This document shows positions 1,313-17,652 of a DNA stretch of 64,000 nt, in pieces. The stretch's first letter is position 1, and every line of letters begins with the position of its first letter. The position numbers were made by a program, and so were the translations under genes. Source of the stretch: Burkholderia sp. BCC0322 (GTDB lineage: Bacteria; Pseudomonadota; Gammaproteobacteria; Burkholderiales; Burkholderiaceae); NCBI RefSeq assembly GCF_902833045.1, contig NZ_CADFDU010000021.1:1-64000 (forward strand). Direction: 5' to 3'. Under the pieces are notes generated by a model. That model made no database searches and was not told the DNA's origin. It saw only the letters and a list, made by a program, of their open reading frames with translations.

Positions 1313-2347
1313 TCAATCGACTTCATGTCGCACCCCAAAATACCGCCGCTGCTCGGCCGTCACGTAGACAGTGGTGGTTTGCAACGACGCGTGCCCGAGC
1401 ACGCGCTGCGCGACGTCGAGTGGCACGCCCGCGGCGACCGTCTGGGTGCCGAACGTATGGCGCAGCGCATGCGGCGAGGTGCGCGCGAGCTGCTGGCGTT
1501 CGGCTTCGGAAAGCTCCGGCAGCGTCGCCGGCCACGCGTCGCGCAGCTGCGCGAGCGCCCAAGCCACCAGGCCACGGGCCTGCCGCACTGCGTAACCGCC
1601 GATTTCGTGGGGGGGGCGCCCGCGGCCAGCCGTGCGGCCTTGGCGCGCGCGGCCGGCGTGGCCGGCATCGTGAGCGGCGCGATGAGCGCTGTTCTTGCTT
1701 TCCCGTTCGATTCGGTTCCGGCCTGGAAATCGGCATCGCGATCGCGCCAGTGCGCGGCCGCGCACGCATCGCTGACCGGCGTCACGCGCGCCTTGCTGCC
1801 CTTGCCCACCACCGTCAGCTGCCAGCTGGCCGGCAGCTGCTGCAACTGGTCGCGCGTGGCCGCGACCGCTTCCGAGATGCGCAGGCCGCTGTCGCCCATC
1901 AACAGCAGCAGCGCGCGGGCCACCCGCCAGCGTGGCGCGGCCTGGCCGTAGCGCTCGCAGTGCTGGTCGAGCGCAGCGCGCACTTTGTCCCATAGCGTCG
2001 CCGGCAATGCGCGGTCGATCTGCATGCGGCTGACGCGCTGTACCGGCTTCGGATCGCGCACCGCGCGCCACGGATTGCCGGCCAAATACCGCACGTCGAC
2101 CTGCCAGTCGAACGCGCCGCAAATCGCGCGGAGCGCGTAGCGCTGGCTGTTGAGCGACAGGCCACCGGGCGCGAACGGCCGCCAGCGCCCGGACGCGCGC
2201 GACGCCGGCGGCCCGACGAACGCATCGGACGGGGCGCGCAGGAACGCCTTGTACGCATCGCCATCCTCGACCGTCAGCGACGAGAGCGCGGTGCCGCGCA
2301 CGGTGATGGCCCACAGCAGCAGCCGTTCGAGTTCGCGCGTGTAAGCC
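1313..2347 (-). pseudogene. Tyrosine recombinase 1, C-terminal half (split by IS66)
   Basis: Encodes the core-binding and catalytic parts of a DUF3701-type tyrosine recombinase that continues on the other side of the IS66 element. Catalytic motifs are visible in two reading frames: the first Arg box (GDSGLRISEA), the Lys region (VGKGSKAR), the HxxR box (HALRHTFGT) and the final LGHAS/Tyr box (TTTVYV). The frame changes near 1600-1616 at a run of eight G on the plus strand (1609-1616), so even without the IS the enzyme would be broken unless slippage restores frame. The closest relative in view is the intact recombinase at 8180-11050. Unlike that protein it ends shortly after the catalytic Tyr (about 12 residues later), without a pRiA4b domain. 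Confidence 0.8.
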
Positions 2348-2431
2348 GTAAGCGGCTTGGGCCGACCGTTTCCCCGTGCTGATTTTTCCAACGCATGATG
2401 GGCGCGTTTAGATTGACGGGGCCAGTCAGTC

Positions 2432-2851
2432 ATGTCGAACGCAGCGGGGCGCGCCCATCCCCATCGCACGTACGCGCGAGAATTCAAGCAGCAGGTGATC
2501 AGAGAGACGCTGGAGCCCGGCATATCAGTGTCGGTTGTTGCGCGACGGCACGACATCAACGCCAATGTGATATTCGGATGGCGTAAGCAATATCGTGAAG
2601 GCAAGCTGGTCGTCCCTGCACTCGGTGTTGCGCCGAGCGTGCCAAGCACGGAACTGCTGAGCGTCGACGTGATCGACACGGAATTGGTACCGCGGGCGCC
2701 GGAGCTGACAGTGGCGTCGGAAGCGATGACGAGCGTACCGATGCCGATGCCCGTGTGCGAGATCGAGGTGGAGATTGGCAAGCGGCGCGTGAAGATTCGC
2801 GGCCTGTCTGCCGAGCGTACCGAAGCGTTCCTGCAGGAATGCCTGAAGTGA
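2432..2851 (+). CDS. tnpA: IS66 TnpA accessory protein
   Basis: A 139-residue protein with an N-terminal helix-turn-helix (YAREFKQQVIRETLEPG, then SVSVVARRHDIN and IFGWRKQY) typical of the IS3/IS66 OrfA-type DNA-binding family. It is the first gene of the IS66 element and overlaps tnpB by four bases (GTGA), implying translational coupling. It assists TnpC-mediated transposition; the exact role of IS66 TnpA is not settled. The gene looks intact. Confidence 0.9.
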   Translation: MSNAAGRAHPHRTYAREFKQQVIRETLEPGISVSVVARRHDINANVIFGWRKQYREGKLVVPALGVAPSVPSTELLSVDVIDTELVPRAPELTVASEAMTSVPMPMPVCEIEVEIGKRRVKIRGLSAERTEAFLQECLK

Positions 2852-3150
2852 TCGCGCTGCCGGCAGGCACGCGCATCTGGCTGGCGGCCGGCGTGACCGA
2901 CATGCGCTGCGGGTTCCAGGGGCTGGCCGCGAAGGTGCAGACAGCGCTCGAAGAGAATCCGCTGGGCGGTCATGTGTTTATCTTCCGCGGCCGCTGCGGC
3001 GATCTCGTGAAGCTGCTTTGGGCGACCGATGACGGACTCTGGTTGCTCGCAAAACGATTGGAGCGAGGCCGTTTTATCTGGCCGCAGGCCGACGATGGAA
3101 AGATCCATCTGACGAGCGCCCAGCTGTCGATGCTGCTCGGAGGGCATTGA
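2848..3150 (+). CDS. tnpB: IS66 TnpB (Orf2) protein
   Basis: A 100-residue protein of the IS66 Orf2 family, recognised from LPAGTRIWLAAGVTDMR near the N-terminus and GRCGDLVKLLWATDDGLW in the middle. The GTG at 2848 is chosen as start because it overlaps the tnpA stop in the usual IS66 GTGA arrangement and gives the family's normal N-terminus; an ATG at 2839 is an alternative. TnpB is required for IS66 transposition but its biochemical role is unknown. Intact. Confidence 0.9.
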   Translation: MIALPAGTRIWLAAGVTDMRCGFQGLAAKVQTALEENPLGGHVFIFRGRCGDLVKLLWATDDGLWLLAKRLERGRFIWPQADDGKIHLTSAQLSMLLGGH

Positions 3151-3224
3151 CTGGCGACAGCCACGACGTACCGCCGCTCTGTCGATGTTGTAAACCGCAT
3201 CGAAGGCTCGTAAACATGTAGTGC

Positions 3225-4745
3225 ATGTCCAAGCATGCGCCGCTTCCTGCCACCGTCGCTGAGCTCCAGGCTCTGGTGCTTGAGCAGCAGGTATCGATCG
3301 CGAACATGGTGCGGGAGATCGTCGCCCGCGACGACGAGATCGAGCGCCTGAAAGCACAGATCGACAAGCTCAAACGGATGTACTTCGGGAGCAAGTCCGA
3401 CAAACTGGCCCGGCAGATCGATAAACTCGAGGCGCTGCTGGAAGACCTGACGGCCGGCCAAGGGGCGGCAGAGGCGCGAGGACAACGAGACAAAGCGTCG
3501 AAGGGGCCACCCAATCGAGGGCCCACACGAGAACCACTGCCGCCGCACTTGCCGCGCGACGAGATCGAACTCACACCAGATTCGGCTTGCCCCATATGCG
3601 CGACTGCGATGCAGTGGCTCGGCGAGGACGTATCCGAATAGCTCGCCCGCGTGGCGGCCGCCTTCAAAGTGATCCGCACGATCCGCCACAAGCTGTGTTG
3701 CCCTGATTGCCACCACATCGAACAGTCCGCGATGCCTAGCCTGCCGATCGAGCACAGCATCGCACATCCGAGCTTGCTGGCCGATATTGCGGTATCGAAG
3801 TTCGCTGATCATCAGCCGCTGTATCGCCAATCGGAGATTGCGGCACGCGACGGCGTGACGCTGGATCGTGGCAGCATGGGCCGCTGGCTCGGGCAGATTG
3901 CCGAACTCTGTGTGCCGCTCGTTGAAGCGATCCAGCGCTACGCGCTGATTCCCGGAAAGGTGCACGTTGACGACACGCCGGTCGCGGTGCTCGCGCCAGG
4001 CAACGGTAAGACGATGACCGGCCGCTTCTGGGTCTACGTGCGCGACGATCGTCGCTCGGGTTCGGCTGAGCCTGCTGCGGTATGGTTCGACTTCTCCTCG
4101 GATCGCAAAGGCGTCCACCCTCAAACTCGGCTCGCCGCATTCCATGGCATAGTGCCGGCCGATGCTTCCTCCGGGTTCGATCAACTGTACGCGAGCGGCG
4201 AGATCCACGAAGTGGCATGCTGGGATCACGCGAGGAGGTACATATACGATGTACACGCGCGCACGCCGACTTCGGATACCCAGCAACTGCTCGAGATGAT
4301 CGGCGAGCTCTACAGCATAGAAGCCGACATCCGAGGCAACGCGCCTGACGAGCGTCTGCGGGTACGGCGGGAGAAGAGCAAGCCGTTGCTCGTGAAGTTC
4401 GAAACGACGATCAGGGCGAAACTCGCGACGTTGTCGACGAAGTCCGCGCTCGCCAAGGCGATCAACTACTCGCTGAATCACTGGGCAGCCCTCTCGTTCT
4501 ACTGCGAGGACGGTCGGGCCGAGATCAGCAACGTACTCGCCGAAAACGCCTTGCGCTGTGTCGCGCTCGGACGCAAAAATTATCTGTTCGTCGGCTCCGA
4601 CAGTGGGGGCGAGCGGGCCGCCGCGATGTATAGCATGATCGGGACGTGCAAGTTCAACGGGATCAACCCGCGTGCCTACCTGGAATACGTCCTGACCCAC
4701 ATCGCTGATCACAAGATCTCTCGCATCGACGAATTGTTGCCCTAG
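3225..4745 (+). pseudogene. tnpC: IS66 TnpC transposase with in-frame amber stop
   Basis: One reading frame runs from 3225 to 4745 except for a TAG at 3639-3641. Residues 1-138 contain the coiled-coil N-terminus (EIERLKAQIDKLKRMYFG) and the start of the zinc-binding region (CPICATAM). The remaining ~365 residues hold the rest of that region (CCPDCHH) and the DDE domain, with VHVDDTPVAV as the first Asp and an ENALRCVALGRKNYLF segment near the Glu. The residue before LARVAAAF is normally Gln, so a single CAG-to-TAG change explains the break. Product would be truncated unless the host suppresses amber codons. An alternative is a translated second half from a downstream start, which would lack the N-terminal DNA-binding part. 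Confidence 0.85.
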
Positions 4746-4941
4746 AACGTGGCTGACAGACTGAAACCCGTCACCCCGCCCACACTCTCAACCGGGTAGA
4801 TCTGGATAGATTTAGATGGATCGTGCCCACGATCGCCGATCATGGACACGATCGCCCGCGATCGACACGGACTCCACCACGCCATCACCATCATGCCTCA
4901 CGCGCGCGCGAACGGGGAAACGGTCGGGCCGAGCCGCTTAC

Positions 4942-5746
4942 TGTAAGCCCGCAGCGTCGCCGGCTGATCGGCATAGCATGCCAGGTACGCGCGCAGCGCG
5001 TCGAGATCGTGGTTCGCATGTAGGTAGCACAGGCCCGGCGCGCGGTTGGCGCCGGTCGCGCCCGACAGCGCGTGCGGGACCGCGAGCCGCTCGAGCGTGC
5101 GGCCGCCGTCGGCCGGCGCCAGCGCGATCGCCTCCGCCGGTGTCGCGCGGTCGAAGGGTTCACTCGCGTCGACGTCGGCGGCGATCGTCGCGCCGAGCGT
5201 GTCCGCCGTGCGCGCGACACCACGCGACCAGCACGCGCGCGCCCGGCGCCGATGCGTGGCACGCGACGCCACCAGCGACGGCCTCGGCGGTTGCAGAACG
5301 CGATCAGCTCGCCGAGCGTGGCGATCCCCTCGCCCGCCAGTCGTCGCGCGATCGGGGGCCGAAACCACAGGCCGACCGCGTGCGTCGGCGTCGGCGCGGC
5401 CGCGGCGAGTTTGGCCGCCGGCCTCGACCATCTTGAGCGACACGGCCGTCAAGCGCGCGCTGCCGTGCTGACGGATGGAGGTTTTCAGGTGTTCGGCTAG
5501 CGCTGACGAGCCGGTCAGCAGTGCGAAGTGCACCAGGTCGTCGCGCATCGTTTTGAGGTGGCGCTCAAGCGCGGCCGGATCATCCTCGTAGGGCGTCGTG
5601 TCTACGTCGTAAGTGTCCGCGTCGTAATAGAGCCGGGCGATGGCCGGTACCGGCACGCGCTGCACCCACGCGCGTAGTGCCGCGAAATCGCTGCGTGTGT
5701 ACGTGCGCGGTGGCGGCAACGTCAGTTGTTCGGCGGGCGCGCTCAC
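4942..5746 (-). pseudogene. Tyrosine recombinase 1, N-terminal half (split by IS66)
   Basis: Begins at ATG 5746 and reads a DUF3701-like N-terminus (TYTRSDFAALRAWVQRVP) closely similar to that of the intact recombinase at 8180-11050. Around residue 108 the frame shifts: the expected helix-hairpin-helix segment (LWFRPP, then GEGIATLGELIAFC) lies in another frame between about 5425 and 5230, before the original frame returns at TLGATIAADVD. Reading ends in the IS66 end at 4941. So the gene carries at least two frameshifts here, a third near 1610 and an insertion. Its start overlaps the stop of the 5743-6096 gene (ATGA), so the two were co-transcribed. Confidence 0.8.
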
Positions 5747-6325: not shown

Positions 6326-6614
6326 TTACAGCCCCAGCTCGCAGTGTGAGCCGAGCCGTACCAGTTGCAAGGTCGACGGATCGGGTTTGCGGTAGATCAG
6401 CACCAGGTCCGGCTTCAAATGACAGTCGCGACACCCCTGCCATTCGCCGATCAACGCGTGATCGCGGTACTTCGCGGGTAGCGCCGCATCGGTTGCGAGC
6501 GGCGGTAGCACGGTGGCCAGCAATGTGTCGAGCGACGCGCGACGCGCGATGCCGGCCGACGGCCACGCGCCGGTAGTCACGCTTGAACGCGTTGCTACGA
6601 TCAATCGTCCGCAT
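6326..6614 (-). pseudogene. YafQ/RelE-family toxin, frameshifted
   Basis: The N-terminus (MRTIDRSNAFKRDYRR from 6614) and C-terminus (RDHALIGEWQG, RDCHLKPDLVLIYR, then LVRLGSHCEL to 6326) of a YafQ-type mRNA interferase are both present but in different frames, with the shift near 6545-6565. The catalytic C-terminal histidines and aspartate of the family are in the second frame, so neither product alone would be active. It overlaps the 3' end of the dinJ-like antitoxin gene, the standard arrangement. Loss of the toxin with a retained antitoxin is a common decay route. Confidence 0.75.
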
Positions 6615-6846
6615 GCAGATCCTTCATCAGCTCCTTGCCCTGGCCGGCATCGAGCTCGGCGATTGCCGCGCGCGTTTCGGCGTTCGGCACCAGCACGTCG
6701 AACGGCAGACGGTGCTCGTCGGCGACGCGGCGCATCAACAAGCGGATCGCGTCGGACACGGACAGGCCCATGCGCTCGAGGGCGGCCGCGGCTTCGCGTT
6801 TGGTGTCCGCGTCGATGCGGGCGCGCACATAGGTATCGGTAGTCAT
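6601..6846 (-). CDS. RelB/DinJ-family antitoxin
   Basis: An 81-residue protein with the ribbon-helix-helix N-terminus of DinJ antitoxins (VRARIDADTKREAAAALERMGLSVSDAIRLLM) and the LPFDVLVPN linker; its C-terminus diverges from the usual DADDLF tail. Start at ATG 6846 is preceded by AAGGAG. It dimerises, binds its own promoter and sequesters the toxin. The toxin gene begins inside its last codons. A promoter with an overlapping dyad lies just upstream, consistent with autoregulation. The gene itself is intact although its toxin is frameshifted. Confidence 0.8.
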   Translation of the reverse strand: MTTDTYVRARIDADTKREAAAALERMGLSVSDAIRLLMRRVADEHRLPFDVLVPNAETRAAIAELDAGQGKELMKDLHADD

Positions 6847-6902: not shown

Positions 6903-6958
6903 AGGTGGAATGGAGATTTTCTGGGGTTAGGTGGATTTTATGGCAGCAAATGCCTCGC

Positions 6959-6976
6959 CGCTAATAAGCATTAGCG
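6959..6976. repeat. dif-like dyad E1
   Basis: Arms CGCTAA (6959-6964) and TTAGCG (6971-6976) are perfect inverted copies around the 6-bp spacer TAAGCA. Extending outwards gives GCCGCTAA against GTCGCTAA (7 of 8). The same layout and nearly the same spacer (TAAGAA) recur at 11261-11278. It lies between the dinJ/yafQ and vapBC-1 modules, which face in opposite directions. Confidence 0.55.
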
Positions 6977-7046
6977 ACTAATAACAAATAAGAGTCGAAA
7001 CAATGAGCGCCTTTGATTGATGCCAAGCCGCATCTAAGGAGCCATC

Positions 7047-7253
7047 ATGCGCACCACCGTGACTGTCGACGACACCCTTTACACTCGCGCGCTCGAACTC
7101 GCTGAGCCGGGCATGGCGCCGGCTGACCTGTTCCGCGCGGCGCTGGAAACGTTCGTGCGTGTCCAGGCCGGCGCGCGCCTCGCTGCGTTAGGCGGGCGGG
7201 TGCCTGACATGCCGGACGTGCCGCGGCGCGCGCCGGCGGCCGACGCCCGATGA
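7047..7253 (+). CDS. VapB-type antitoxin
   Basis: A 68-residue protein beginning MRTTVTVDDTLYTRALELAEPGM, typical of one class of VapB antitoxins (type II ribbon-helix-helix-like VapB with the following PIN toxin). AAGGAG precedes the ATG. The C-terminal tail is Pro/Ala-rich and would wrap the toxin. Its stop overlaps the vapC start by four bases. The partner toxin is frameshifted, so this antitoxin may now be an orphan. Confidence 0.75.
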   Translation: MRTTVTVDDTLYTRALELAEPGMAPADLFRAALETFVRVQAGARLAALGGRVPDMPDVPRRAPAADAR

Positions 7254-7631
7254 ACGTCCTGGTTGATACCTCGGTGTGGGTCGAGCATTTTCGGCGTCCC
7301 CTGCCCGCCCTGGTGCAGCTGCTGCGCGTCGACGGCGTAATCACGCATCCGCTGGTGCTGCTCGAGCTGACCTGCGGGACGCCGCCTGAACCGCGAGCCC
7401 GGACCTTGGGGGATCTCGCGTTGCTGCGTCAGACGCGACTCGCGACGCCGGCCGAGGTCGCGGACTGGATCGAGCGGGAGCAACTGTACGCGCGGCTGCG
7501 ATGCGGTGGATTGCACGCTGCTGGCGTCAACGCTGCTCACGCCGAACACATCGCTCTGGACGCGCGATCGGCGGCTCGCTCAGTTGGCCACGCAATTCGG
7601 CGTCGGCTACGTGCCGACGGATCTGCATTGA
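7250..7631 (+). pseudogene. VapC PIN-domain toxin, frameshifted
   Basis: The N-terminal PIN motif (MNVLVDTSVWVEHF, first catalytic Asp) and the conserved Glu (LVLLELTCG) are in the starting frame to about 7500. The C-terminal half, with the motif LLASTLLTPNTSLWTRDRR and the ending FGVGYVPTDLH at a TGA at 7629-7631, lies in a different frame. The shift is at about 7500-7515, where a few conserved residues (GRGLGWVD in relatives) also seem lost, so a small deletion is likely. As read, the first frame runs on to 7738 without PIN features. The ribonuclease should be inactive. Confidence 0.8.
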
Positions 7632-7800
7632 TCGTCGGTGACGATCGATACCGGCAAAAAAATATTCCGGCGCCGCCGGGATATCCAAATCCAAACACGT
7701 CCGGGATGAACGCGCGAGGAGATCAATCCTCAGTCTAATAGACCGACGATTGGTCTGCCAGTCAAAGATCGTCAAGTGACGGCAGCTGTACTGTCCGGCG
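7632..7800. other. Intergenic after vapC-1
   Basis: No gene is supported. A weak hairpin followed by an A-run (near 7660) could be a read-through terminator remnant. The stretch separates the vapBC-1 module from dif-like site A. Confidence 0.4.
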
Positions 7801-7824
7801 TGCCAATAAGAGGAGTTATCGGCA
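7801..7824. repeat. dif-like site A
   Basis: Left arm TGCCAATAA (7801-7809), spacer GAGGAG (7810-7815), right arm TTATCGGCA (7816-7824); the arms are inverted copies at 8 of 9 positions. The ATAA-N6-TTAT geometry is that of XerCD dif sites, though the outer arm bases differ from the proteobacterial dif consensus. A minus-strand terminator follows 15 bp away, as at sites B and C. Confidence 0.65.
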
Positions 7825-7839
7825 TTGCCGCCGCTCCAG

Positions 7840-7862
7840 AAAAACCCGGCCGTAGCCGGGTT
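7840..7862 (-). terminator. Rho-independent terminator of cassette 1
   Basis: On the minus strand AACCCGGC pairs with GCCGGGTT and is followed by a T run. It ends transcription coming from the recombinase fusion and the broken small gene. Confidence 0.7.
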
Positions 7863-7871
7863 GCCCCAGCG

Positions 7872-8063
7872 CTAACGCGCGCAGGATCAGGTACACCACC
7901 AGCAACGGCATATTCAGGGCGGCGATCGCCGCCAGCGGGTGAACCAGCCCGTAGCTGGCCGGCCAGAGCCGCGGTCGACTGCCACCAGCGCGATCAACAG
8001 CACCGCGGCCGCCAGGCCCCTGCCCCACTCGCCTTCCTTGAACTGCACAGCCGTCAGGGTCAT
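7872..8063 (-). pseudogene. Small two-helix membrane protein, frameshifted copy
   Basis: Homologous to the intact gene at 11533-11733. The N-terminal half (MTLTAVQFKEGEWGRG with the first hydrophobic helix) and the C-terminal half (LVHPLAAIAALNMPLLVVYLILRA) are in different frames because of a 10-bp deletion near 7965-7970. It shares the terminator and dif-like site with the intact cassette copy. Function unknown. Confidence 0.6.
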
Positions 8064-8179
8064 CGTCGAGCTCCTTTGGGTTCACACGGTGGATGCTATC
8101 GCGCCGGCCGGATCCACCGGCCCGTCGGCGTGGGGGGCTCGATTGTCGGGCAAAGCTGCCCTGACCTGCCGCCTAGACG

Positions 8180-11050
8180 TCAGAACACAGCAAGCCGCGC
8201 ATTGGCCTCGGATAATCGAAACCCGTCCGGATCGAACGGCTCGCCGAGCCACGCCAACAGCTCGCGTTTGGTGTCGGTCATCCGGCCGGCGAGTGTGCGC
8301 ACGAGCTGCGCGTAACCTGCAGGGCCGCTGCAGTCCTCGGGCGGACACGCCCCGGCGCCGGCGACGCACCGCGGATAGCACGTGCCCGCAGCCGCTGGCC
8401 CGACCGCCTCGATCGTGACCGCATGCCGCCAGTCGTCGTCGAGATCGTACGTGTAGGTCAGCGCCGCACTGATCGCCGCCACCTCCTCGAGCCGCAAGTC
8501 GGCGGCGACGCTCGCCAACGGATTCAGCGCCCCAACCGGACCCGCAAACTCGAACCCGTAGCGATGCCGGTTGTGCCAGCCCATGGCCGCCTGGATCACG
8601 TCGTGCAGCTCGGCCAACGACATGTCAGCAGGCACCTCGAGGCGACGCCAGATTTCCGGCATCACGTCCTGCAGACTGACCCGCAGCCGCATCACGCGTG
8701 GACCGGGCGCCGTCTCTACGTTATTTCCTGCTGCCAACGCCGAACTTCCCGCCCCGCCCGGAAACGGAATCACCGCATTGCCTCCCTGAGCGGCTGGCAC
8801 CCGATAGGTCCAGGTGCGATCCGTGCCAACCCATTGCGCATCGATCTCGGCCACGCAATGGTGAAGATGCGCTTCGTCGCGGATCTCGTCGAACAGATCG
8901 TCGAGCACAACGTCGAGTGCCGCCTCGCCTTCGTGCAGCACCTTGAGCGCGTACACGCCGGGCGCGAGATGCTCGGCCGCGTGATCGGCCAGAATGCCGC
9001 GCTCAAGCGCGCGAATCGTGCGCGCCCGCCCCCGCCCGTCTGGCGCGACGTTCTCAACGCGCAGCGTGAGCTTGATCGGTGCGGTCCGCATCCCGGCCAC
9101 CTCGTCATCATCGCGCGCACTGAAGGCGTCGCCCTGTTCGTCGTCACGGATCCACTGCGGCGCGAACGCCCCCGCCGATTCGGCGGGGACCGCCTGCGCC
9201 TGCTGCTGATAATAATCGAGGGCCGCTTCGAGCACGCGCTGCTGCTGCGCCTTCACGTAGATCGAGGTGGTGGCGAGCGACGCGTGGCCGAGGATTTGCT
9301 GCACCACGTCGATCGGCACGCCGCGCGCGGTCGCGTCGGTGCCGAACGTATGGCGCAGCGCATGCGCACTGGCTCTTTGCAGTTGCGCCGCATCCCACAG
9401 CGACAATGCCCCCCACCGCTGCAACTCGCCCTGCAGGCGGCTGAGCGCGGTGCGCACCAGGCGGCCGAGCGCATCGGGCGTATACGAACCGACGTCGGGA
9501 CCGCCCTCGGCGACCGGGCCCTCGCCGTGCCGCGCCTGGGCCGCTGCGGTGCCGGGAATCGCCAGCGGCGCGATCAGCGGCGGATCGCTCGTCGTCGCAT
9601 CACGAGCATTGCTCACGCCCCTCCCCTCCAACGCGAGTCCGCGATCCGCCCAGTGCGCACGCAGCGCCTCGAGCGTCGCCGGGCTGACGGGCACCGTGCG
9701 CACCTTGCTGCGCTTGCCGACCAGCGTGAGCGCCCACACCGATTGCCCCTTGATGCCGTCGACGCGTTTTAAGCCGCTGCGCCGAGCGCTGGCCGCTTCG
9801 GCGCGACGCAGACCCGAATCGACCATCAGCCCGATCGCCGCGCGCGCGATGCGCCACTGCGCCGCGTCGTCATCCAGTCGCGCGCAGTGCGCGTCGAGCG
9901 TCTCGCGCAGCGTGCGCAACACCTCCGGCGCCAGCGCCCGCTCGACCTGCAGCGACCACTCGCGCGTGAGCGTGGCCGGCAGCGTGACGGCGCTGAATGG
10001 GTTGCCGGCCAGATAGCGCACCTTGACCAGCCAGTCGAATGCCATGCGCAGCGTGCGGACGGCATAGGCCTGGCTGTCGGCCGACAGCGAACCGGTAAAC
10101 GGCCGCCAGCGGCCGCTCACGCGAGGCCGCTTCGGGCCGCAGAAGTCCGCGCTCGGCTGCCGCAGAAATGCCTTGTAGGCGTCGCAGTCCTCGACGCGTA
10201 GCGACGACACCGCAACGCCGCGCACTTTCAGTGCCCAGAGCACGAAGCGCTCGATCTCGCGCGTGTACGCACGCAGCGTCGCGGGCCGGTCGCGATAGCG
10301 CATGAGCCACGCGTGCAGCGCAGCCAGGTCGTGCTCGGCGCGAATGAACGGGAACCCGACCGCGCGGTTCGTGCCGCCAGCCCCCGACAGTTCGACCGGC
10401 GCTGCAAGCCGCTCGAGCGGCGCAAGCCCGTCCGTACCCGGACCGACCACGATCGCGCGGTCGGGGGTGGGAGTGAGCGGCGCGGCATCGACGTCGGCGT
10501 CCACCCGCACGCCGAGCGTCGCCTCGTGCCGGCGCAGCCACGCCACCAGGGTTTTCGCGCGCAGCGGGCCGATGCGGGGAATCGAGCGCCACCAGCTTCC
10601 GCCGTGCCGGTTGCAATACGCGATCAACTCGCCAAGTGTCGCGATCCCCTCCCCGGTGAGGCGCTGCGCCACGAGAGGCCGAAACCACAGCGCGAGTGCA
10701 TGATCGGCTGCGGGCGCGGCTGCGGCGAGCTTGGCCGCGTCCTCGACCATGCGCAGCGTCAAGGCGGTGAGTTTCGCCTCGCCGTGCTGCCGCATCGACG
10801 CGCGCAGGTGCTCGGCCAGCGCCGCGGATCCGTTGAGCAGCGCCAGGCGCACCAACGCGTCGCGCATCGTGGCCAGATGCCGCTCGACCGCGTCGGCCTC
10901 GGCCAGCACCGCACTGTCCTCGACGTCGTAAAAACGCCGCGCGATGGTCGCGGCCGAGATGCCCTGGATGCGCGCGCGCAGCGCGGCGAAGTCGGTGCGC
11001 GTATAGGTCGCCGGCGGCGGCACCGCGACCGCTTGCGGCCGGTTAGCCAT
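8180..11050 (-). CDS. DUF3701-type tyrosine recombinase fused to a pRiA4b ORF-3-like domain
   Basis: An uninterrupted 956-residue protein. Residues ~14-105 resemble the DUF3701 phage-integrase N-terminus, ~115-180 a helix-hairpin-helix, ~235-350 a SAM-like core-binding domain, and ~365-615 the tyrosine recombinase fold. All catalytic residues are visible: R415, K446, H563, R566, H589 and nucleophile Y598. After a linker comes an unassigned domain (~655-750), and residues ~783-945 match the plasmid pRiA4b ORF-3-like family (PEIWRRLEVPADMSLAELHDVIQ, MGWHNRHRYGF, YTYDLDDDW, and a Cys cluster CYPRC...CPPEDC). Family knowledge gives strand exchange by a covalent 3'-phosphotyrosine; the tail's role is unknown. 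The fusion is unusual. It sits between dif-like sites A and E2, so those are candidate substrates (inference). Start ATG 11050. Confidence 0.85.
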   Translation of the reverse strand: MANRPQAVAVPPPATYTRTDFAALRARIQGISAATIARRFYDVEDSAVLAEADAVERHLATMRDALVRLALLNGSAALAEHLRASMRQHGEAKLTALTLRMVEDAAKLAAAAPAADHALALWFRPLVAQRLTGEGIATLGELIAYCNRHGGSWWRSIPRIGPLRAKTLVAWLRRHEATLGVRVDADVDAAPLTPTPDRAIVVGPGTDGLAPLERLAAPVELSGAGGTNRAVGFPFIRAEHDLAALHAWLMRYRDRPATLRAYTREIERFVLWALKVRGVAVSSLRVEDCDAYKAFLRQPSADFCGPKRPRVSGRWRPFTGSLSADSQAYAVRTLRMAFDWLVKVRYLAGNPFSAVTLPATLTREWSLQVERALAPEVLRTLRETLDAHCARLDDDAAQWRIARAAIGLMVDSGLRRAEAASARRSGLKRVDGIKGQSVWALTLVGKRSKVRTVPVSPATLEALRAHWADRGLALEGRGVSNARDATTSDPPLIAPLAIPGTAAAQARHGEGPVAEGGPDVGSYTPDALGRLVRTALSRLQGELQRWGALSLWDAAQLQRASAHALRHTFGTDATARGVPIDVVQQILGHASLATTSIYVKAQQQRVLEAALDYYQQQAQAVPAESAGAFAPQWIRDDEQGDAFSARDDDEVAGMRTAPIKLTLRVENVAPDGRGRARTIRALERGILADHAAEHLAPGVYALKVLHEGEAALDVVLDDLFDEIRDEAHLHHCVAEIDAQWVGTDRTWTYRVPAAQGGNAVIPFPGGAGSSALAAGNNVETAPGPRVMRLRVSLQDVMPEIWRRLEVPADMSLAELHDVIQAAMGWHNRHRYGFEFAGPVGALNPLASVAADLRLEEVAAISAALTYTYDLDDDWRHAVTIEAVGPAAAGTCYPRCVAGAGACPPEDCSGPAGYAQLVRTLAGRMTDTKRELLAWLGEPFDPDGFRLSEANARLAVF

Positions 11051-11344
11051 TGGACGGCCCTCCCCCGTGCGGACCGATGACGCGCGTGCGGGCAGGCCGG
11101 TCGAGCGACTCCCGGAGGGCGCCCCTGGAGGGATCGCGGCGGGGGACGCGGACGGGCAGGCAGGGAGAACGGCGTAGCACCATGGCGAACGGAACTAAAA
11201 AGGGAGTGTCCCCAAATAGGTAAAGGGAAACACGCCTATTCTAGCCATTAAACGCCAGACTGCTAATAAGAATTAGCAGGCAAGGTGGCACGCTAAAAAA
11301 TCGGACCGCCACATTCCGATGTCGGCGGCCCGCATTCAACCCAA
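11051..11344. promoter_or_regulatory. Recombinase upstream region
   Basis: About 295 bp without a supported gene, holding the recombinase promoter region and dif-like dyad E2 at 11261. An AT-richer stretch (11195-11260) contains A-rich and GGGA repeats but no clear -35/-10 pair could be fixed. Confidence 0.4.
11261..11278. repeat. dif-like dyad E2
   Basis: Arms TGCTAA (11261-11266) and TTAGCA (11273-11278) are perfect inverted copies around spacer TAAGAA; extended arms GACTGCTAA and GCCTGCTAA match at 8 of 9. Same class as dyad E1. It lies 210 bp upstream of the recombinase start. Confidence 0.55.
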
Positions 11345-11460
11345 CTACTCCGGCGGCCAGGCTGTCGAGGCCCATGCGACCACCGCGCCTCCAGCATAGG
11401 CGCTGCCCGGCACGGCAGCAAGGACGATTTCGCGCCCACCCTTGCCGTGCTTGGCTCCCA

Positions 11461-11484
11461 TGCCAACAAGGAGAGTTATCGGCA
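11461..11484. repeat. dif-like site B
   Basis: Left arm TGCCAACAA (11461-11469), spacer GGAGAG (11470-11475), right arm TTATCGGCA (11476-11484), the right arm identical to site A. A minus-strand terminator follows 15 bp downstream. An ATG at 11485 (minus strand) overlapping the right arm opens a 46-codon frame to 11345 with a hydrophobic C-terminal half; it is unproven. Confidence 0.65.
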
Positions 11485-11498
11485 TTGACGGCGCGCAC

Positions 11499-11522
11499 AA
11501 AAAACCCGGCCGGAGCCGGGTT
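11499..11522 (-). terminator. Rho-independent terminator of cassette 2
   Basis: Minus-strand stem AACCCGGC with GCCGGGTT followed by six T. It terminates the vapBC-2/small membrane gene operon just before site B. Confidence 0.7.
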
Positions 11523-11532
11523 GCCCAAGCGC

Positions 11533-11733
11533 TCACGCGCGCAGGATCAGGTACACCGCCAGAAACGGCATGTTCAGGGCAGCGATCGCCGCCAGCGGGT
11601 GAACCAGCCCGTAGCGGGCCGGCCAGAGCGCCGATAGCCCGCAGTCGACGGCCGCCAGCGCGATCAACAGCGCCGCGGCCGCCCCGCCCCTGCCCCACCC
11701 GCCTTCCTTGAACTGCCTCGCTGTCAGGGTCAT
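11533..11733 (-). CDS. Small two-helix membrane protein
   Basis: A 66-residue protein starting at ATG 11733 after an AAGGAG-like stretch (CCAAGGAGCGCGACG). It has a short basic N-terminus (MTLTARQFKEGGWGRG) and two hydrophobic segments at about residues 17-36 and 44-65, predicting a hairpin in the inner membrane. It follows vapC-2 by 32 bp and precedes a terminator, so it is the last gene of that operon. No known family is recognised. A frameshifted copy exists at 7872-8063, showing that the gene travels with the cassette. Confidence 0.6.
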   Translation of the reverse strand: MTLTARQFKEGGWGRGGAAAALLIALAAVDCGLSALWPARYGLVHPLAAIAALNMPFLAVYLILRA

Positions 11734-11765
11734 CGTCGCGCTCCTTGGGGTTCACACGGTGGATG

Positions 11766-12176
11766 CTATCGCGCCGGCCGCAACCAGTTTTCGACCGGCA
11801 GGCCGGCGACACGGGTAAATTCGGCCGTATTGTCCGTGACCAGGACGGCGTCGACCGCCAGCGCGTGCGCGGCGATCAGCATATCGTTCGCCCCGATCAG
11901 CTGGCCTTGCTTCTCGAGGTCGGCCCGCAGCCGGCCGTAGCACCGGTCGGCGTCGGGCTGCAACGGCAACACAGTCAAGCTCGCCAGCAGTTGCTCGACC
12001 CGCTGCGCGAGGGTGGACGAGCCACGCTTCCAGACGCCAAATCGCAACTCCGCCGCCACGATGATCGAGGTGCACACTTGTTCGGGCGGCGTTTGTCCGA
12101 TGCGGGTGGCGCAGGCGCCGCGCGGGTCGCGGATCACGTTCGACAAGATGTTGGTGTCGAGCAGATACAGCGTCAT
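11766..12176 (-). CDS. VapC PIN-domain ribonuclease toxin
   Basis: A 136-residue PIN protein with all acidic positions visible: YLLDTNILS (first Asp, ~residue 7), AAELRFG (Glu, ~43), GANDMLIAAHAL (Asp, ~98) and VTDNTAEF (Asp, ~115). VapC toxins cleave tRNA or rRNA in the cytoplasm and are held inactive by VapB. Its start overlaps the vapB stop by four bases. Unlike the first vapBC pair this one is intact. The last codons fall inside the duplicated cassette-end repeat. Confidence 0.88.
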   Translation of the reverse strand: MTLYLLDTNILSNVIRDPRGACATRIGQTPPEQVCTSIIVAAELRFGVWKRGSSTLAQRVEQLLASLTVLPLQPDADRCYGRLRADLEKQGQLIGANDMLIAAHALAVDAVLVTDNTAEFTRVAGLPVENWLRPAR

Positions 12177-12415
12177 TCGATGTCGACCGGTTCAGCCGGC
12201 AGGCTATCGATGTCGGGAAACGTTTCGTCCAGCGGAGTCCATTGGGCGAACAGCTCACGCAACGGCGCGGCCTCCACGGGCTCAATGATCAAGCGCCGGC
12301 CTTCCCTGTGGATGGTGACTTCCGAGACCTGCAGCTCGAACTCGCGCGGGATCCGCACGGCCTGGCTGCGCCCATTGCGAAACAGGCGCGCATGACGGGT
12401 GTCAGGTGTTGGCAT
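12173..12415 (-). CDS. VapB antitoxin, AbrB/SpoVT-type
   Basis: An 80-residue antitoxin with the swapped-hairpin AbrB motif (ARLFRNGRSQAVRIPREFEL) at residues ~8-30, followed by the toxin-binding tail. The ATG at 12415 is chosen because AGGAGTCGTCCC precedes it; an upstream in-frame ATG at 12481 would add 22 unconserved residues. The pair is an operon with vapC (ATGA overlap) and probably represses its own promoter, which lies near dif-like site D. Confidence 0.85.
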   Translation of the reverse strand: MPTPDTRHARLFRNGRSQAVRIPREFELQVSEVTIHREGRRLIIEPVEAAPLRELFAQWTPLDETFPDIDSLPAEPVDIE

Positions 12416-12496
12416 GGGACGACTCCTATTCAAACGAAACGGCATATGCCACAGCATATCCACGTTTGGTTCGATTCGCAATCATCTCCGAGGCGC

Positions 12497-12520
12497 ATCT
12501 CGTAAGCAGAGTTATCAGAT
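12497..12520. repeat. dif-like site D
   Basis: Left arm ATCTCGTAA (12497-12505), spacer GCAGAG (12506-12511), right arm TTATCAGAT (12512-12520). Arms match at 7 of 9, and the symmetry extends outwards (GGCGC against GGCAC). It sits upstream of vapB-2 and upstream of the divergent gene at 12599, that is, between two cassettes. Confidence 0.6.
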
Positions 12521-12540
12521 GTGCCACTTTTGCACCCGGC

Positions 12541-12589
12541 TCGACGTGCAAGAATCCGTGCTGTATAAAGATATATCTCCATACAGTAC
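12541..12589 (+). promoter_or_regulatory. Promoter with overlapping dyad, upstream of 12599 gene
   Basis: TCGACG (12541-12546) and TATAAA (12564-12569) are 17 bp apart, 30 bp before the start codon. A dyad GTGCTGTAT / ATACAGTAC (12558-12566 and 12581-12589, 8 of 9) centred on AGATATATCT overlaps the -10, so it is probably an operator. A related dyad lies downstream at 13088-13121. Confidence 0.5.
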
Positions 12590-12598
12590 GGTTGGACG

Positions 12599-13054
12599 AT
12601 GACGTACTTCACCCCCGCCGATCACGACGCGGCCGTGCAGGCGATGCTCGCACACCCCGAGATCGGCAGCCGTCACCTGCGCGGCCTGATGAGCGGCATC
12701 AAGCGCCGCGCGCGGGCCCGCGCGGTGATCGCCTTCGTCCAGGCGATCGCCCCACCCCCACCCGATGTGACCATCACGACCACGCGGCAGCTGATGCGGG
12801 TGCTGTTCGGCCACGCGGTGTCGGTCAACGACCTGCACCGCCACTTCGCCACGCCCGGGCGCCTGGCTGACGATCGCGCCGACACGACCGCGCTGGCCAC
12901 CTGGCTCGAGGCCAACCGGGAACGCTTGGCGGCCGACGCGGACACTTTGATGCTCGAGCTGGATGCGGCCTGGAAGGGGTTCACGGCAGCGGCCGCCGAG
13001 GCGGCCGGCAAGATCCGCCAGGCCGGGCGGCAGGAACGTCGTGGCGAGCCGTGA
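12599..13054 (+). CDS. Hypothetical helical protein in a dyad-bracketed cassette
   Basis: A 151-residue mostly alpha-helical protein with no recognised domain. Notable stretches are a basic patch (MSGIKRRARARAVIAF), a Pro-run (APPPPDVTITTTRQLM) and a charged C-terminus (EAAGKIRQAGRQERRGEP). Start at 12599 lies 10 bp after the promoter dyad. It is flanked by two related palindromes and by dif-like sites D and C, so it behaves as an independent cassette. It could be a regulator that binds those palindromes, but no DNA-binding motif can be named. Confidence 0.55.
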   Translation: MTYFTPADHDAAVQAMLAHPEIGSRHLRGLMSGIKRRARARAVIAFVQAIAPPPPDVTITTTRQLMRVLFGHAVSVNDLHRHFATPGRLADDRADTTALATWLEANRERLAADADTLMLELDAAWKGFTAAAAEAAGKIRQAGRQERRGEP

Positions 13055-13087
13055 GAGGGACTCGCCGTTGACGGACGGGCGATGCTC

Positions 13088-13121
13088 CATGCTGTTCAAG
13101 GATATATCTGCAAGCAGCATG
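13088..13121. repeat. Second GATATATCT-centred dyad
   Basis: CATGCTGTT (13088-13096) and AGCAGCATG (13113-13121) are inverted at 8 of 9 positions around a centre containing GATATATCT, the same centre as the dyad at 12558-12589. It lies 34 bp after the stop of the gene it helps to bracket. Confidence 0.5.
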
Positions 13122-13236
13122 TCCAGTGAACAGACGGGACGGCACGGATGACGTTGGCAAAGAACCCGGCCACGGCCGGGGTTGATCAGCGGTACGATTT
13201 TGACATCGACCCTACGCGGCCCAGACGACCGGCACC

Positions 13237-13262
13237 CAAAAACCCGGTCGGAGCCGGGTTTG
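13237..13262 (-). terminator. Minus-strand terminator between cassettes
   Basis: AACCCGGCTC / GACCGGGTT stem followed by T5 on the minus strand, nearly identical to the cassette terminators at 7840 and 11499. A weaker relative is at about 13163-13183. No minus-strand gene directly precedes it, so it looks like the leftover of a lost cassette. Confidence 0.5.
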
Positions 13263-13298
13263 GGAAAGGGTCTCATTGCCGCGTTGACTGTCTTGGCG

Positions 13299-13322
13299 TA
13301 CCGGTAAGCGGAGTTAGCGGTA
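13299..13322. repeat. dif-like site C
   Basis: Left arm TACCGGTAA (13299-13307), spacer GCGGAG (13308-13313), right arm TTAGCGGTA (13314-13322), 8 of 9 inverted. As at sites A and B, a minus-strand terminator begins about 12 bp to the right. Confidence 0.6.
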
Positions 13323-13333
13323 TGGCCGCATGC

Positions 13334-13361
13334 CAAAAAAACGGGCCAATTGGCCCGTCCT
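13334..13361 (-). terminator. Terminator of the 13365-14347 operon
   Basis: Perfect palindromic stem GACGGGCCAATTGGCCCGTT with a T7 tract on the minus strand, directly after the small basic gene. Confidence 0.75.
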
Positions 13362-14927: not shown

Positions 14928-15599
14928 ATGGTCATTACGATTGGGGCGGAAAAAGGTGGTGTTGCTAAGACGCGATTGGCAACTCACATCGCAGCCTTGG
15001 CTGCATCGGAAGGCGTTGATGTCGTTCTTCTCGACACAGATAAACAGGGATCTGCCATGAGTTGGTCCCGAATTCGGAATGAGGAGGGTGTCACGCCAGC
15101 AATTCCAGTGTTAGCTCTACCGGCAAATCCCGCTCGGGAGCTAGCAAATCTGGCAAACAAGTACACCCTGGTTGTTGTGGACATCGGCGCTCAAAACTAT
15201 CGAACGATGCTCGAATGCGCACTCCTGTCAGATCTCGTTCTTGTGCCATGTGGTGCAGATCAACAAGAGGTTGAGTCGACCTTGAATGTCTTTTCGACCC
15301 TGAAAGACATGGGGCCTCGGCATGAAAGCGGAGAAATCCCCGCATACGTTGTCCTCACCCGGGTTTCGCCGGTCGAAGGGGCTAAGGCGACTGCCGACCT
15401 CCGCTCCTATCTCGAGAGCGAAGAGATCCGACTTTTCGATGCACAAATTCCCCAAAGAGCAGCCTGGCTTGCCACTGGAAAGACGGGCAGGGCAGTCCAT
15501 GAATTGAAGGGCCGCGACAGGTCGAAGAAGGCGATTGATGAAATGGACGCGGTCTACCGGGAAATTCTCGAGCGAATCAATGGCGGTGAGGAAGAATAA
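14928..15599 (+). CDS. parA: ParA-family partition ATPase
   Basis: A 223-residue ParA/MinD-type ATPase. The deviant Walker A (EKGGVAKTRLATHIA) begins at residue ~8, the Walker A' Asp lies in VVLLDTDKQGSAMSW (~33-47) and the Walker B in TLVVVDIGA (~80-90). It is short and lacks an N-terminal helix-turn-helix, as in type Ib-like or MipZ-like ParAs. GGAGG precedes the ATG. The stop codon overlaps the start of parB by one base, so the two are an operon. ParA forms ATP-dependent assemblies on the nucleoid that move ParB-bound plasmid copies. Confidence 0.9.
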   Translation: MVITIGAEKGGVAKTRLATHIAALAASEGVDVVLLDTDKQGSAMSWSRIRNEEGVTPAIPVLALPANPARELANLANKYTLVVVDIGAQNYRTMLECALLSDLVLVPCGADQQEVESTLNVFSTLKDMGPRHESGEIPAYVVLTRVSPVEGAKATADLRSYLESEEIRLFDAQIPQRAAWLATGKTGRAVHELKGRDRSKKAIDEMDAVYREILERINGGEEE

Positions 15600-16564
15600 T
15601 GGCTACCTTCAAGAAGAAGCCCCTGGCGACTGACCGAGTCGCCGCTGTTCAGGACGCGGCATCGACAGCGCCAATCGTGGGCGACCCGCGGATGGCGCCA
15701 CCGGCAATAAATACTGAGCAGCCCAATGCGCGGGAGGTTGGCTCGAGCCAAGATCCGGTCAAATATGAGGTTGGCCAGGTCTATGACGTTCCGATCGGGA
15801 AAATTAGATCAAATCCGTTCAATCCGAGAGTCGTTTATACGGCTTCTGCCGTCTCTGAGATGGCTGCTTCGCTGGTGGCTCGGGGACAGGGTATGTCGGC
15901 AATCGGGTACGCCAATGGGGAGGGAGAGGTCGTGCTCATTGAGGGCGAGACTCGCCTTCGAGGGGCCCGTGCAGCAGGGCTGTCAACGCTGCGGCTCGAA
16001 ATTCGTCCAAAGCCAGCGAGCGACCGGGAGCTGTATGAGGAAGCCCGCGCCGCGAACGTAGAGCGTCGAGATCAAAGCCCGTTGGATGATGCAATCAAAT
16101 GGAAGGAATTGATTGGAAAGAAGATTTATCCGACGCAGGCCGCCCTGGCCAAGGCCCTAAACCTTGGTGAAGACCATGTGAGTCGGACCATGTCGCTCGC
16201 TCAATTGCCGAACAAGGTCGTTCACGCTGTCGCTGAGTATCCGGAGCTCCTGTCTCTCAAAATGCTGAACGCAATTCGAGAATTCTGGGAAGTAAAGGGC
16301 GAGGAAGAGACGTTGGCCCTGATCTCTGAAGCCGCAAAAAGTGGCATGGGCTACCGCGATGTTGCGGCTCGACGTAAAGCGGCTGCGAAAGGGACCGTGA
16401 AGCGGCCTCGGTCGACTCGCGAACAGTTAACCTTCCGTGGAGCGAAGGGCGAGTTCAAATCGTTTGAAGAGGATGGACGGATCGAGTTGAAGCTGAAGGG
16501 CTTAGCGCCAGACGTCGCGATGGAAATCAGCGAAAAGATCTTGGCGTTGTTTCCGAAAGAATAG
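15599..16564 (+). CDS. parB: ParB-family centromere-binding protein
   Basis: A 321-residue ParB/Spo0J-type protein. The N-terminal nuclease-like domain spans ~residues 58-150 (VPIGKIRSNPFNPR; the C-motif-like IEGETRLRGARAAG, close to the GERR box that binds CTP in ParB proteins). The helix-turn-helix follows at ~170-200 (QAALAKALNLGEDHVSRTM). The C-terminus is basic and probably dimerises. A parS-like palindrome lies inside its own coding sequence at 15738-15751 (codons ~47-51), just before the conserved domain. Confidence 0.9.
   Translation: MATFKKKPLATDRVAAVQDAASTAPIVGDPRMAPPAINTEQPNAREVGSSQDPVKYEVGQVYDVPIGKIRSNPFNPRVVYTASAVSEMAASLVARGQGMSAIGYANGEGEVVLIEGETRLRGARAAGLSTLRLEIRPKPASDRELYEEARAANVERRDQSPLDDAIKWKELIGKKIYPTQAALAKALNLGEDHVSRTMSLAQLPNKVVHAVAEYPELLSLKMLNAIREFWEVKGEEETLALISEAAKSGMGYRDVAARRKAAAKGTVKRPRSTREQLTFRGAKGEFKSFEEDGRIELKLKGLAPDVAMEISEKILALFPKE
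15738..15751. promoter_or_regulatory. parS-like palindrome inside parB
   Basis: TTGGCTCGAGCCAA, the 14-bp core of the upstream palindromes, within the region of parB that encodes the variable N-terminus (GSSQD). Confidence 0.65.
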
Positions 16565-16765
16565 CGTAGGCGCGGCTACCGCTGGCTGATGCCGGCGGTG
16601 GACGTTTCTGTTTCCGTCTCTGTCTCTGGTGGGCGGTGCGTCCCAGGGTCGATGGGTGAGGCAATCTCACAGTGGAACAACACCTGTGGGTGCCTTTAAA
16701 AGACAACCCCTTTAAAACCTTTAGGCTCGCAAGAGCCTTATGCAGTAAGGGTTTTGGGGAGGATC
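16565..16765. other. AT-richer region before the iterons
   Basis: No gene. It contains a TTTAAAA-rich stretch (16695-16720), candidate for DNA unwinding, and a small hairpin GGCTCGCAAGAGCC (16724-16737). No DnaA box matching TTATCCACA closely was found here. Confidence 0.4.
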
Positions 16766-17574
16766 GGTCATCCTTTATGGGGCGAAAAGTCAGGGTTTAT
16801 GGGGGGCAAGGGTCATGCTTTATGGGGTGAGGTCATGTTTTGTGGGGCATCGCGATCTTGTCTTAAGAGCATGTCGCAACTTATTGATTAAAAAGCAGTT
16901 TTTATAGAAGTCACGCGAGGGAAGTCAATGACTGGTCGTACTTTGTGGGGTGTAAGGTCGTTATTTGTGGGGCGTGTACGCCGGGTACGACGGCAACACC
17001 TGCTTGTCGAGGCTTAAAGGTCATGGTTTGTGGGGGGCAAGCGAACCGTGAGTAAGTATACACTTCCTTGTAAGTCCATGAAATAAAACGAAAATACCTA
17101 GTCTCATCGGAAAGGTCATCCTTTGTGGGGCGCCGTCTGTCCGGCTTCGGTCCCTGAAGGTCATGGTTTATGGGGAGGTTCCTCCATGGCTAGATTCCTT
17201 GTCCGAGAGGTCGTGGTTTATGGGGAATGGAGATATACGATGCAGTCGCGAGTGCTGCGGCGCGTAGTTCGGGCGGGCGTCGCCCGGTACGTCGATGGGC
17301 TCGAGGCTTAAAAGTCATGGTTTATGGGGGCCTCGATGCATCTCGTTGGCCCGGCGGCATGACAGGTCACGATCGGTGGTGACAGGGGAAAGGGCGAAAG
17401 GTCGGGGTTTATGGGGTGTACCTGTAGGTCGCCAAGATTTCGCGGCAAGCAAAGGTCATGGTCTATGGGGAGACAATCGTCATCAACGAAAGGTCATGGT
17501 CTATGGGGCGCGCAGTCAGTGCGCCTCGAAAGGTCATGGTTTGTGGGGCGATGGAAAGGTCGTGGTTTGTGGGG
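16766..17574 (+). repeat. oriV: Iteron array, primary replication origin
   Basis: Sixteen 17-bp direct repeats with consensus GGTCATGGTTTRTGGGG were located, starting at 16766, 16788, 16811, 16831, 16934, 16956, 17019, 17114, 17159, 17209, 17313, 17400, 17454, 17492, 17532 and 17558; a degenerate copy follows at 17584. They end just before the rep gene, so they serve both as initiator binding sites at the origin and as likely operators of rep. The 86-bp gap at 16848-16933 is AT-rich (TTATTGATTAAAAAG). Confidence 0.88.
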
Positions 17575-17652
17575 GATGTTTAAAGGTCATCCTTGATGAC
17601 TTGCGAACATGACTTTTGCGACCTAGAATGCTCCTCAAACTATGAGGACCGT

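Follow-up and report, generated by a model that had tools for sequence, protein, structure and literature searches.

The DNA studied here is a stretch of 64,000 nucleotides from Burkholderia sp. BCC0322 (contig NZ_CADFDU010000021.1, positions 1 to 64,000), referred to below as the window. It represents a plasmid of Burkholderia type: 40 plasmid records matched it, 38 of them from Burkholderia. Six short palindromic sequences, or dyads, lie within 6.4 kb of the window, starting at positions 6956, 7801, 11258, 11461, 12497 and 13299, and among them stands the gene for a large tyrosine recombinase with a DUF3701 domain. Our results identify such dyads as the probable core site of DUF3701 tyrosine recombinases, the TnpR subgroup that includes the resolvase of Tn4401.

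Palindromic sites and the recombinase of the window

Dyads were scored in a 9-6-9 layout: two 9-bp arms matching at 7/9 or more positions, with AA-N6-TT at the centre. All six are present where an earlier inspection of the letters without database searches (the sequence-only reading) had placed them, and the comparison with shuffled sequence confirms their enrichment. The region 6000-14400 contains six dyads, against a mean of 0.18 and a maximum of three in 300 shuffles, and the whole window contains eight, against a mean of 1.8 and a maximum of six in 60 shuffles. The inner TAA-N6-TTA geometry of XerCD dif and pdif sites is found in five of the six; site 11461 has CAA instead of TAA. A terminator-like hairpin on the minus strand, reported after three of the four sites with GNRGAG spacers, is also recognizable by eye.

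Site 11258 and the gene it faces are best read as the one live unit of the window, composed of the following parts:

8180..11050, minus strand: intact tyrosine recombinase of 956 amino acids (aa), with DUF3701, catalytic and C-terminal PRiA4_ORF3 domains (Pfam)
11238..11257, minus strand: accessory element TGGCGTTTAATGGCTAGAAT, abutting site 11258 on the recombinase-facing side and matching the motif GTTTAATGG at 9/9 positions
11258..11281, minus strand: core site with type III arms, GACTGCTAA-TAAGAA-TTAGCAGGC, 207 bp 5' of the recombinase profile start

The pairing of this site with the intact gene rests on three observations: sites of the same kind are present upstream of the orthologues in L001, L002 and L083, the accessory motif is complete, and the site faces the gene. 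The recombinase reaches 96.7 bits for PF12482 (cut-off 26.9) and 62.4 bits for PF00589 (cut-off 27.1). The columns read from the motif as catalytic R-K-H-R-H-Y are invariant in both alignments, A1 and A2. The catalytic part is closest to XerC and XerD, yet far under their cut-offs, and the NCBIfam XerS profile gives 31.5 bits where its cut-off is 267. Among relatives with solved structures, XerD and XerA are nearest by sequence, and XerH ranks lower. It is the sole DUF3701 recombinase found in the window in one open frame, accompanied by pieces of a second. A Tn3-family transposase was not found in the scanned subset of window proteins; one is annotated beside the second recombinase of L006.

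Arm types and spacers

All 16 plasmid stretches compared (L001-L016) contain at least one perfect or near-perfect palindrome, with diverse spacers, for example TGCCGATAA-GGAGAG-TTATCGGCA, ATCTGATAA-GTAGAG-TTATCAGAT and CTGCTAA-N6-TTAGCAG. Their integrases group as the arms do: type I with TGCCG, type II with ATCTG and type III with CTGCTAA. The type II integrase is 33% identical to the type I integrase of L003, and for the type III integrases (window, L001, L002) the identity is 48-50%. L011 carries type I and type II recombinases together, with a matching site for each. The outer four arm bases agree at 3.77/4 positions within a site and at 1.92/4 between sites. Among 40 sites aligned side by side there is no clear hybrid of two arm types; site 6956, whose outer arms are unlike, could be a hybrid or a decayed site.

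Spacers vary within an arm type. In the same 16 stretches, type I arms enclose GGAGAG, GGGGAG, TAGGAG, TACGAG, TACGAA, TAAGAA and GCGGAG, and ATCTG arms enclose GTAGAG, GAACAA and CTATGC. Since the same arms bear many spacers, the two classes into which the sequence-only reading had divided the sites (GNRGAG and TAAGNA) are an unnatural split of one family. A classification by spacer is rejected, the spacer being free to vary.

Action of the host XerCD on these sites is very improbable. Burkholderia dif-like sites have the form CGATAA-N6-TTATGTNAAAT (48/65 genomes), with the GATAA half common to both kinds of site. However, the XerD-like half TTATGTNAAAT is found in none of the six window sites, whose right arms carry TTATC or TTAGC, and a resident recombinase with matched arms is present.

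Position of the sites relative to DUF3701 recombinases

Two sets of recombinases were analysed. The first came from a genome scan with alignment A1, one genome per species, which gave at least 79 loci; plasmid loci, genome loci and the window together provided 80 near-full-length recombinases. In the 79 loci listed, TAA-N6-TTA dyads of at least 8/9 number 44 when the spacer is 6, against 0-5 for any other length between 0 and 14, and perfect 9/9 dyads number 30 and 0-1, respectively. A site of at least 8/9 is present within 8.5 kb upstream of 48 of the 80 recombinases listed, and the same 48 total three downstream. At the threshold of 7/9, the first 450 bp upstream of the 80 listed recombinases hold 30 matches and the first 450 bp downstream hold one. 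In some plasmids the site lies several kb upstream of the recombinase, at the start of the operon.

Distances between arms correlate with distances between recombinases (Mantel r 0.55, n=48; 0.50 for 31 dereplicated pairs; 0/5000 permutations each). The correlation is weaker for spacers: r is 0.42 for the 48 (0/5000) and 0.23 after dereplication (45/5000).

For the second set, PF12482 was searched in 65 Burkholderia genomes and found in 60; ranked by E-value, the best 80 matches that have an open frame of 500 aa or more were taken, including three loci with little upstream sequence (L151, L160, L182). Among these best 80, an upstream site of at least 8/9 is found in 24 and of at least 7/9 in 35, with 38 sites in all. 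At 8/9 there are 26 matches at spacer 6, one at spacer 7 and none elsewhere.

Accessory element

On its recombinase-facing side the core runs into the sequence TTGCGTTTAATGGGTAAAAT, whose positions 5-11 are the most conserved (32 sites). The motif GTTTAATGG is matched at 6/9 or more on the facing side of 46 of the 48 sites, on the other side of 3/48 and in 3.2% of random windows. The two sites without it on the facing side are those of the type II recombinases in L008 and L011. When the search started from the motif instead (at least 8/9, with AAAA or AGAA just after), it found 38 places upstream of 38 of the 80 recombinases listed, seven of them outside the palindrome-based set. The 24 bp beside these places form dyads of 9/9 in 20 cases, 8/9 in 11, 7/9 in five and 5/9 in two.

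The sequence TTATCR of the arm is 17 bp from TAAAAT of the accessory element, and a promoter, as judged from this arrangement, may overlap core and accessory element. The palindrome could then be an operator, bound by a repressor or by the recombinase itself to control the recombinase operon, with no recombination taking place there. TTATCR and TAAAAT could serve as -35 and -10 boxes, the palindrome is situated at most 450 bp upstream of many recombinase genes, and res and irs sites of the Tn3 family also contain promoters, according to the accessible text of PMC7157771. An operator alone is nevertheless rather unlikely: the inner TAA-N6-TTA is Xer geometry with exactly 6 bp, the binding protein would need to change along with the recombinase, the catalytic columns are conserved, and a promoter leaves the conserved GTTTAATGG unexplained. 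Control and recombination can also coexist at one site.

Number of sites per plasmid and presumed function

Sites with type I arms, allowing at most two mismatches, were counted in 16 whole plasmids. Exactly one is present in 12 of them (an orphan in W01, W02 and W09), two or three in W10, W12 and W13, and none in W08, where a type II site is present. Type I arms without any mismatch were found in 13/65 Burkholderia genomes, at 16 sites, 11 of which have a DUF3701 match within 6.5 kb (two of the 11 being type III enzymes). In the window and in nine of the 16 plasmid stretches (L001, L003, L005-L008, L011, L013, L015), the distance from a site to parA is at most about 4 kb. The remaining seven have no parA in the fetched part, L002 having a ParB-like gene about 17 kb off.

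A site adjoining an integrase gene is typical of attP, and the direct repeat flanking the recombinase in the window resembles a product of integration. The dyad could thus be the attachment site of an integrative element, at which the recombinase inserts a plasmid or module into a host site (attP/attB). This is quite unlikely given the distribution of sites. Perfect type I arms occur in the 13 of 65 genomes counted above and are mostly near a DUF3701 match. None of the six genomes with a GATAA-type recombinase site yielded another exact GATAA-N6-TTATC carrying that spacer (these are drafts, and diverged partners would be missed), which makes an attL/attR pair unlikely there.

One site with one recombinase, often near partition genes and on varied backbones, fits best with the resolution of dimers or cointegrates. 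We consider it likely that the dyads are core sites of a single-recombinase resolution system for plasmid dimers and cointegrates, which has been repeatedly renewed and has left relics behind, and that they do not form a working array of the pdif kind.

Several points weigh against this proposal. No recombination product was seen. No site of at least 8/9 was found in 32 of the 80 first-set recombinases listed (some with short upstream sequence), and none of at least 7/9 upstream of 45 of the best 80 in the second set; the main negative result is one score band of 37 second-set recombinases, in which a site accompanies only five. The sets are not independent, at least eight genes being shared, and the first includes near-identical plasmids. 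The palindrome search is itself biased toward symmetric sites, and arms are inherited together with genes, so that the Mantel signal is partly linkage. The motif GTTTAATGG was derived from 32 of the 48 sites on which it was tested, the motif-first search scored the adjoining 24 bp at the best of three offsets, and the motif is absent from type II sites (L008, L011) and from the Tn4401-type branch. Finally, the counts in whole plasmids leave out type III arms.

Most recombinases of the score band just mentioned (L120, L122, L127, L130-L132, L136 and others) start behind a constant TTCTGTCAAACTGGCGCCCATG. The contigs carrying the 37 measure 0.8-1.4 Mb in 17 cases, possibly a third replicon, and are shorter in 19 and longer in one.

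Remaining sites and neighbouring genes of the window

The other five sites and the genes around them are as follows:

1313..5746, minus strand: second DUF3701-type recombinase, in pieces either side of an IS66 element (about 2432-4745, with TnpA/B/C domains)
6326..6846, minus strand: YafQ/RelE-type toxin with a RelB/DinJ antitoxin, in the interval that separates site 6956 from the broken recombinase
6956..6979, minus strand: site CGCCGCTAA-TAAGCA-TTAGCGACT, with a weak accessory motif (5/9)
7047..7738, plus strand: VapB/VapC-like pair between sites 6956 and 7801 (Pfam matches under cut-off)
7801..7824, minus strand: second copy of the probable orphan type I site, TGCCAATAA-GAGGAG-TTATCGGCA
7801..8116: left copy of a direct repeat (type I site and small gene), 87% identical to the right copy
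11461..11484, minus strand: type I site TGCCAACAA-GGAGAG-TTATCGGCA, probably an orphan, with an intact right arm and a changed left arm and without accessory element
11461..11786: right copy of the direct repeat, which with 7801-8116 flanks the module of the type III recombinase
11533..11733, minus strand: small protein of 66 aa, right of site 11461, the putative membrane protein of the sequence-only reading; no Pfam or NCBIfam match
11766..12415, minus strand: PIN (VapC) toxin and AbrB/MazE-type antitoxin, found beside a site in many Burkholderia plasmids
12497..12520, minus strand: probable orphan type II site ATCTCGTAA-GCAGAG-TTATCAGAT; right arm as in the type II site of L008 and L011, left arm changed
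12599..13054, plus strand: protein of 151 aa, no Pfam or NCBIfam match; its gene is flanked by sites in the window, L009 and L010
13299..13322, minus strand: site TACCGGTAA-GCGGAG-TTAGCGGTA, probably an orphan; arms matching at 8/9, with neither an accessory element nor a recombinase alongside
14928..18879, plus strand: genes for ParA-like and ParB-like proteins and the Rep3 replication initiator, adjoining the site cluster

Site 6956 belongs with the recombinase broken by IS66: it is located on the 5' side of the minus-strand genes of which that recombinase is the last. In 7801, 11461 and 12497 the right arm equals that of their own type and the left arm is altered. On the gene-facing side of these three and of 13299 the accessory motif scores 2-3/9, which at 12497 says little, type II sites being without the motif anyway; no type II recombinase was found in the window. 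From their sequences, these four are probably orphan sites left from earlier enzymes.

The sequence-only reading had counted 7801 and 11461 as separate sites; in fact both open the copies of a 326-bp direct repeat. Its copies, 87% identical, lie on either side of the module of the type III recombinase, the arrangement that would result from recombination of a circle carrying such a site into the resident type I site. The repeat suggests that the live unit may have arrived by recombination at an old type I site.

Dif-like sites near toxin-antitoxin genes are known from the pdif modules of Acinetobacter plasmids, which have distinct XerC and XerD halves and use the host XerCD. The window differs in lacking a distinct XerD half-site and in having a resident DUF3701 recombinase with a matching site. 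The sequence-only reading had proposed an array of this kind, each segment between dyads being a mobile module swapped at the spacer. Three observations favour it. The direct repeat 7801/11461 is one. Homology to plasmids over 11440-11800 (51 matches) has its left edge at 11460-11473 in 49 cases, on or inside site 11461. The gene for the 151-aa protein has a site on either side in the window, L009 and L010, and its neighbours differ among them. However, the window's left flank is common to L001, L002 and L083, so the 49 edges represent one or a few events in the lineage of the window. L009 and L010 are the sole two plasmid records matching the 151-aa gene, only four records match 12460-14400 at all, and in L009 the interval holds a second gene and is bounded by sites of differing arm type. 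Dyads containing ATATATC also lie on both sides of the 151-aa gene.

Two further segments were tried as cassettes and rejected, as relatives of their genes occur without a close site. For the VapBC genes (7047-7738), the 81% relative in L102, one of several (H232 and H233 lying outside the comparison), has no TAA-N6-TTA dyad of at least 7/9 in 12.6 kb. For the 263-aa gene, no such dyad was found in L096, and L097 has one 7/9 dyad about 5 kb away. Several sites of differing types, unlike spacers within the window, changed left arms in three sites and the absence of a clear two-type hybrid among the 40 aligned sites (6956 being doubtful) also argue against an array, which we regard as unlikely. 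What stands of the earlier proposal is that the sites are dif-like, that their arms are unlike those of XerCD dif and that a tyrosine recombinase is paired with one of them. A working cassette array is unestablished, because 11258 alone keeps an accessory element and an intact recombinase, the left arms of 7801, 11461 and 12497 are changed and 13299 has no adjoining recombinase.

A possibly related site on Burkholderia chromosomes

The sequence GATAA-GAAAAG-TTATC was found 45 times, in 44/65 Burkholderia genomes. Its left flank looks conserved and its right flank much less so in the 20 loci viewed (among L183-L210). Eight places were checked, all on contigs of 3.5-3.9 Mb, and six of them are at 45-55% of the contig. 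Of 25 contigs that also contain the dif-like CGATAA-N6-TTATGTNAAAT, 23 have the two sequences 0.8-30 kb apart, and the other two have them 115 and 151 kb apart. In L152 (G050) and L198 (G031) the sequence lies about 340 bp upstream of a DUF3701 domain match; G019 and G060 contain it and have no DUF3701 match. A chromosomal DUF3701 recombinase may use it as its site, with the gene lying elsewhere in other species.

Comparison with known systems

Cre/loxP is a single-recombinase system for plasmid dimer resolution with palindromic 13-bp arms and an 8-bp spacer. The present sites have arms of 9 bp or slightly more and a 6-bp spacer. In XerS/difSL and XerH/difH, as described in the accessible part of PMC5357621, one tyrosine recombinase likewise acts with a near-symmetric site beside its gene, and the centre of difH measures 6-10 bp. 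The window site is also beside its gene (207 bp). Those systems are chromosomal and FtsK-dependent and have other arms, whereas the window type occurs on plasmids, carries a DUF3701 domain and has arms varying by type and an asymmetric accessory element. TnpI/irs of Tn4430 and Tn5401 (accessible part of PMC7157771) also combine a tyrosine resolvase with an inverted-repeat core upstream of its gene and accessory sequence. There, the accessory sequence consists of direct repeats DR1/DR2; here it is a single element unlike the arms.

A further comparison is with the Tn4401 resolvase. The available text of PMC8138268, the sole paper naming DUF3701 in the open-access literature searched, places DUF3701 in the TnpR subgroup together with Tn4401 TnpR and calls the function of the domain not known. 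This subgroup has the same Pfam domains as the window recombinase. The gene L006:23033-24724 is 68.7% identical to Tn4401 TnpR, and the plasmid type I recombinase is 33% identical to that gene. In the second set, genes resembling Tn4401 tnpR have a dyad ahead of them, for example GACAGATAA-N6-TTATCTGCC, at a distance of 33-72 bp to the profile start. Further relatives of Tn4401 type, in L099, L100 and L101 and the Tn3-linked gene of L006, have dyads as well. This branch has no GTTTAATGG element, and the window type differs further by its C-terminal PRiA4_ORF3. In Tn4401 itself (L098) only a degenerate ATAA-TCGTTA-TTATC is seen by eye before tnpR; the dyads of its relatives are clear. The Cupriavidus metallidurans DUF3701 gene in L100 has TTGCGATAA-GAAAAG-TTATCGCAA ahead of it, with the same spacer as the Burkholderia chromosomal site.

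No earlier description of these sites was found in the open-access literature searched (subscription journals mostly lie outside it), and the accessible parts of PMC5357621, PMC7157771, PMC11724359, PMC13367494 and PMC3414803 do not describe them. The same open-access search found no paper on multimer resolution in Burkholderia. In 2012, a survey of plasmid tyrosine recombinases raised the question "Plasmid resolvases?" and considered this role unsupported in the families examined, the inclusion of DUF3701 being unstated in its accessible part (PMC3414803). In the plasmid records compared, DUF3701 genes are annotated only as phage integrase family protein or site-specific integrase.

Proposed mechanism and significance

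In the resolution system proposed here, each 9-bp arm of the 24-bp palindromic core would bind one monomer of the same recombinase, and strand exchange would take place in the free 6-bp spacer as crossover region. Toward the recombinase, a complete unit would consist of the core, followed by the asymmetric TTGCGTTTAATGGGTAAAAT (in types I and III and many relatives) and finally by the recombinase gene itself or by an operon of which it is the last gene. The most likely role of the enzyme is to resolve dimers and cointegrates of the plasmid at the core, as in XerS/difSL or Cre/lox. The accessory element could confer directionality and may be held by the DUF3701 domain. The window would contain one live unit (11258 with 8180-11050), and its other five sites would be what remains of earlier units with different specificities, accumulated next to parAB.

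A wider view is tentative, and we hold it to be possible rather than probable. DUF3701 recombinases might be a large unrecognised family of single-recombinase resolution systems on beta-proteobacterial plasmids and transposons, whose self-evolving arm code would provide orthogonal lox-like sites. In the plasmid branch, the asymmetric accessory element, read by the DUF3701 domain, would enforce resolution. In a chromosomal branch, site and enzyme would be separated, the former fixed near dif on chromosome 1 and the latter encoded on a different replicon.

A defined site of core and accessory element makes the resolvase role directly testable and provides a motif for locating the resolution site of large plasmids. 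Many naturally differing pairs of recombinase and site are on offer, and the results bear on cointegrate resolution by transposons of the Tn4401 type. They suggest that many Burkholderia-type plasmids may separate fused copies of themselves in this way.

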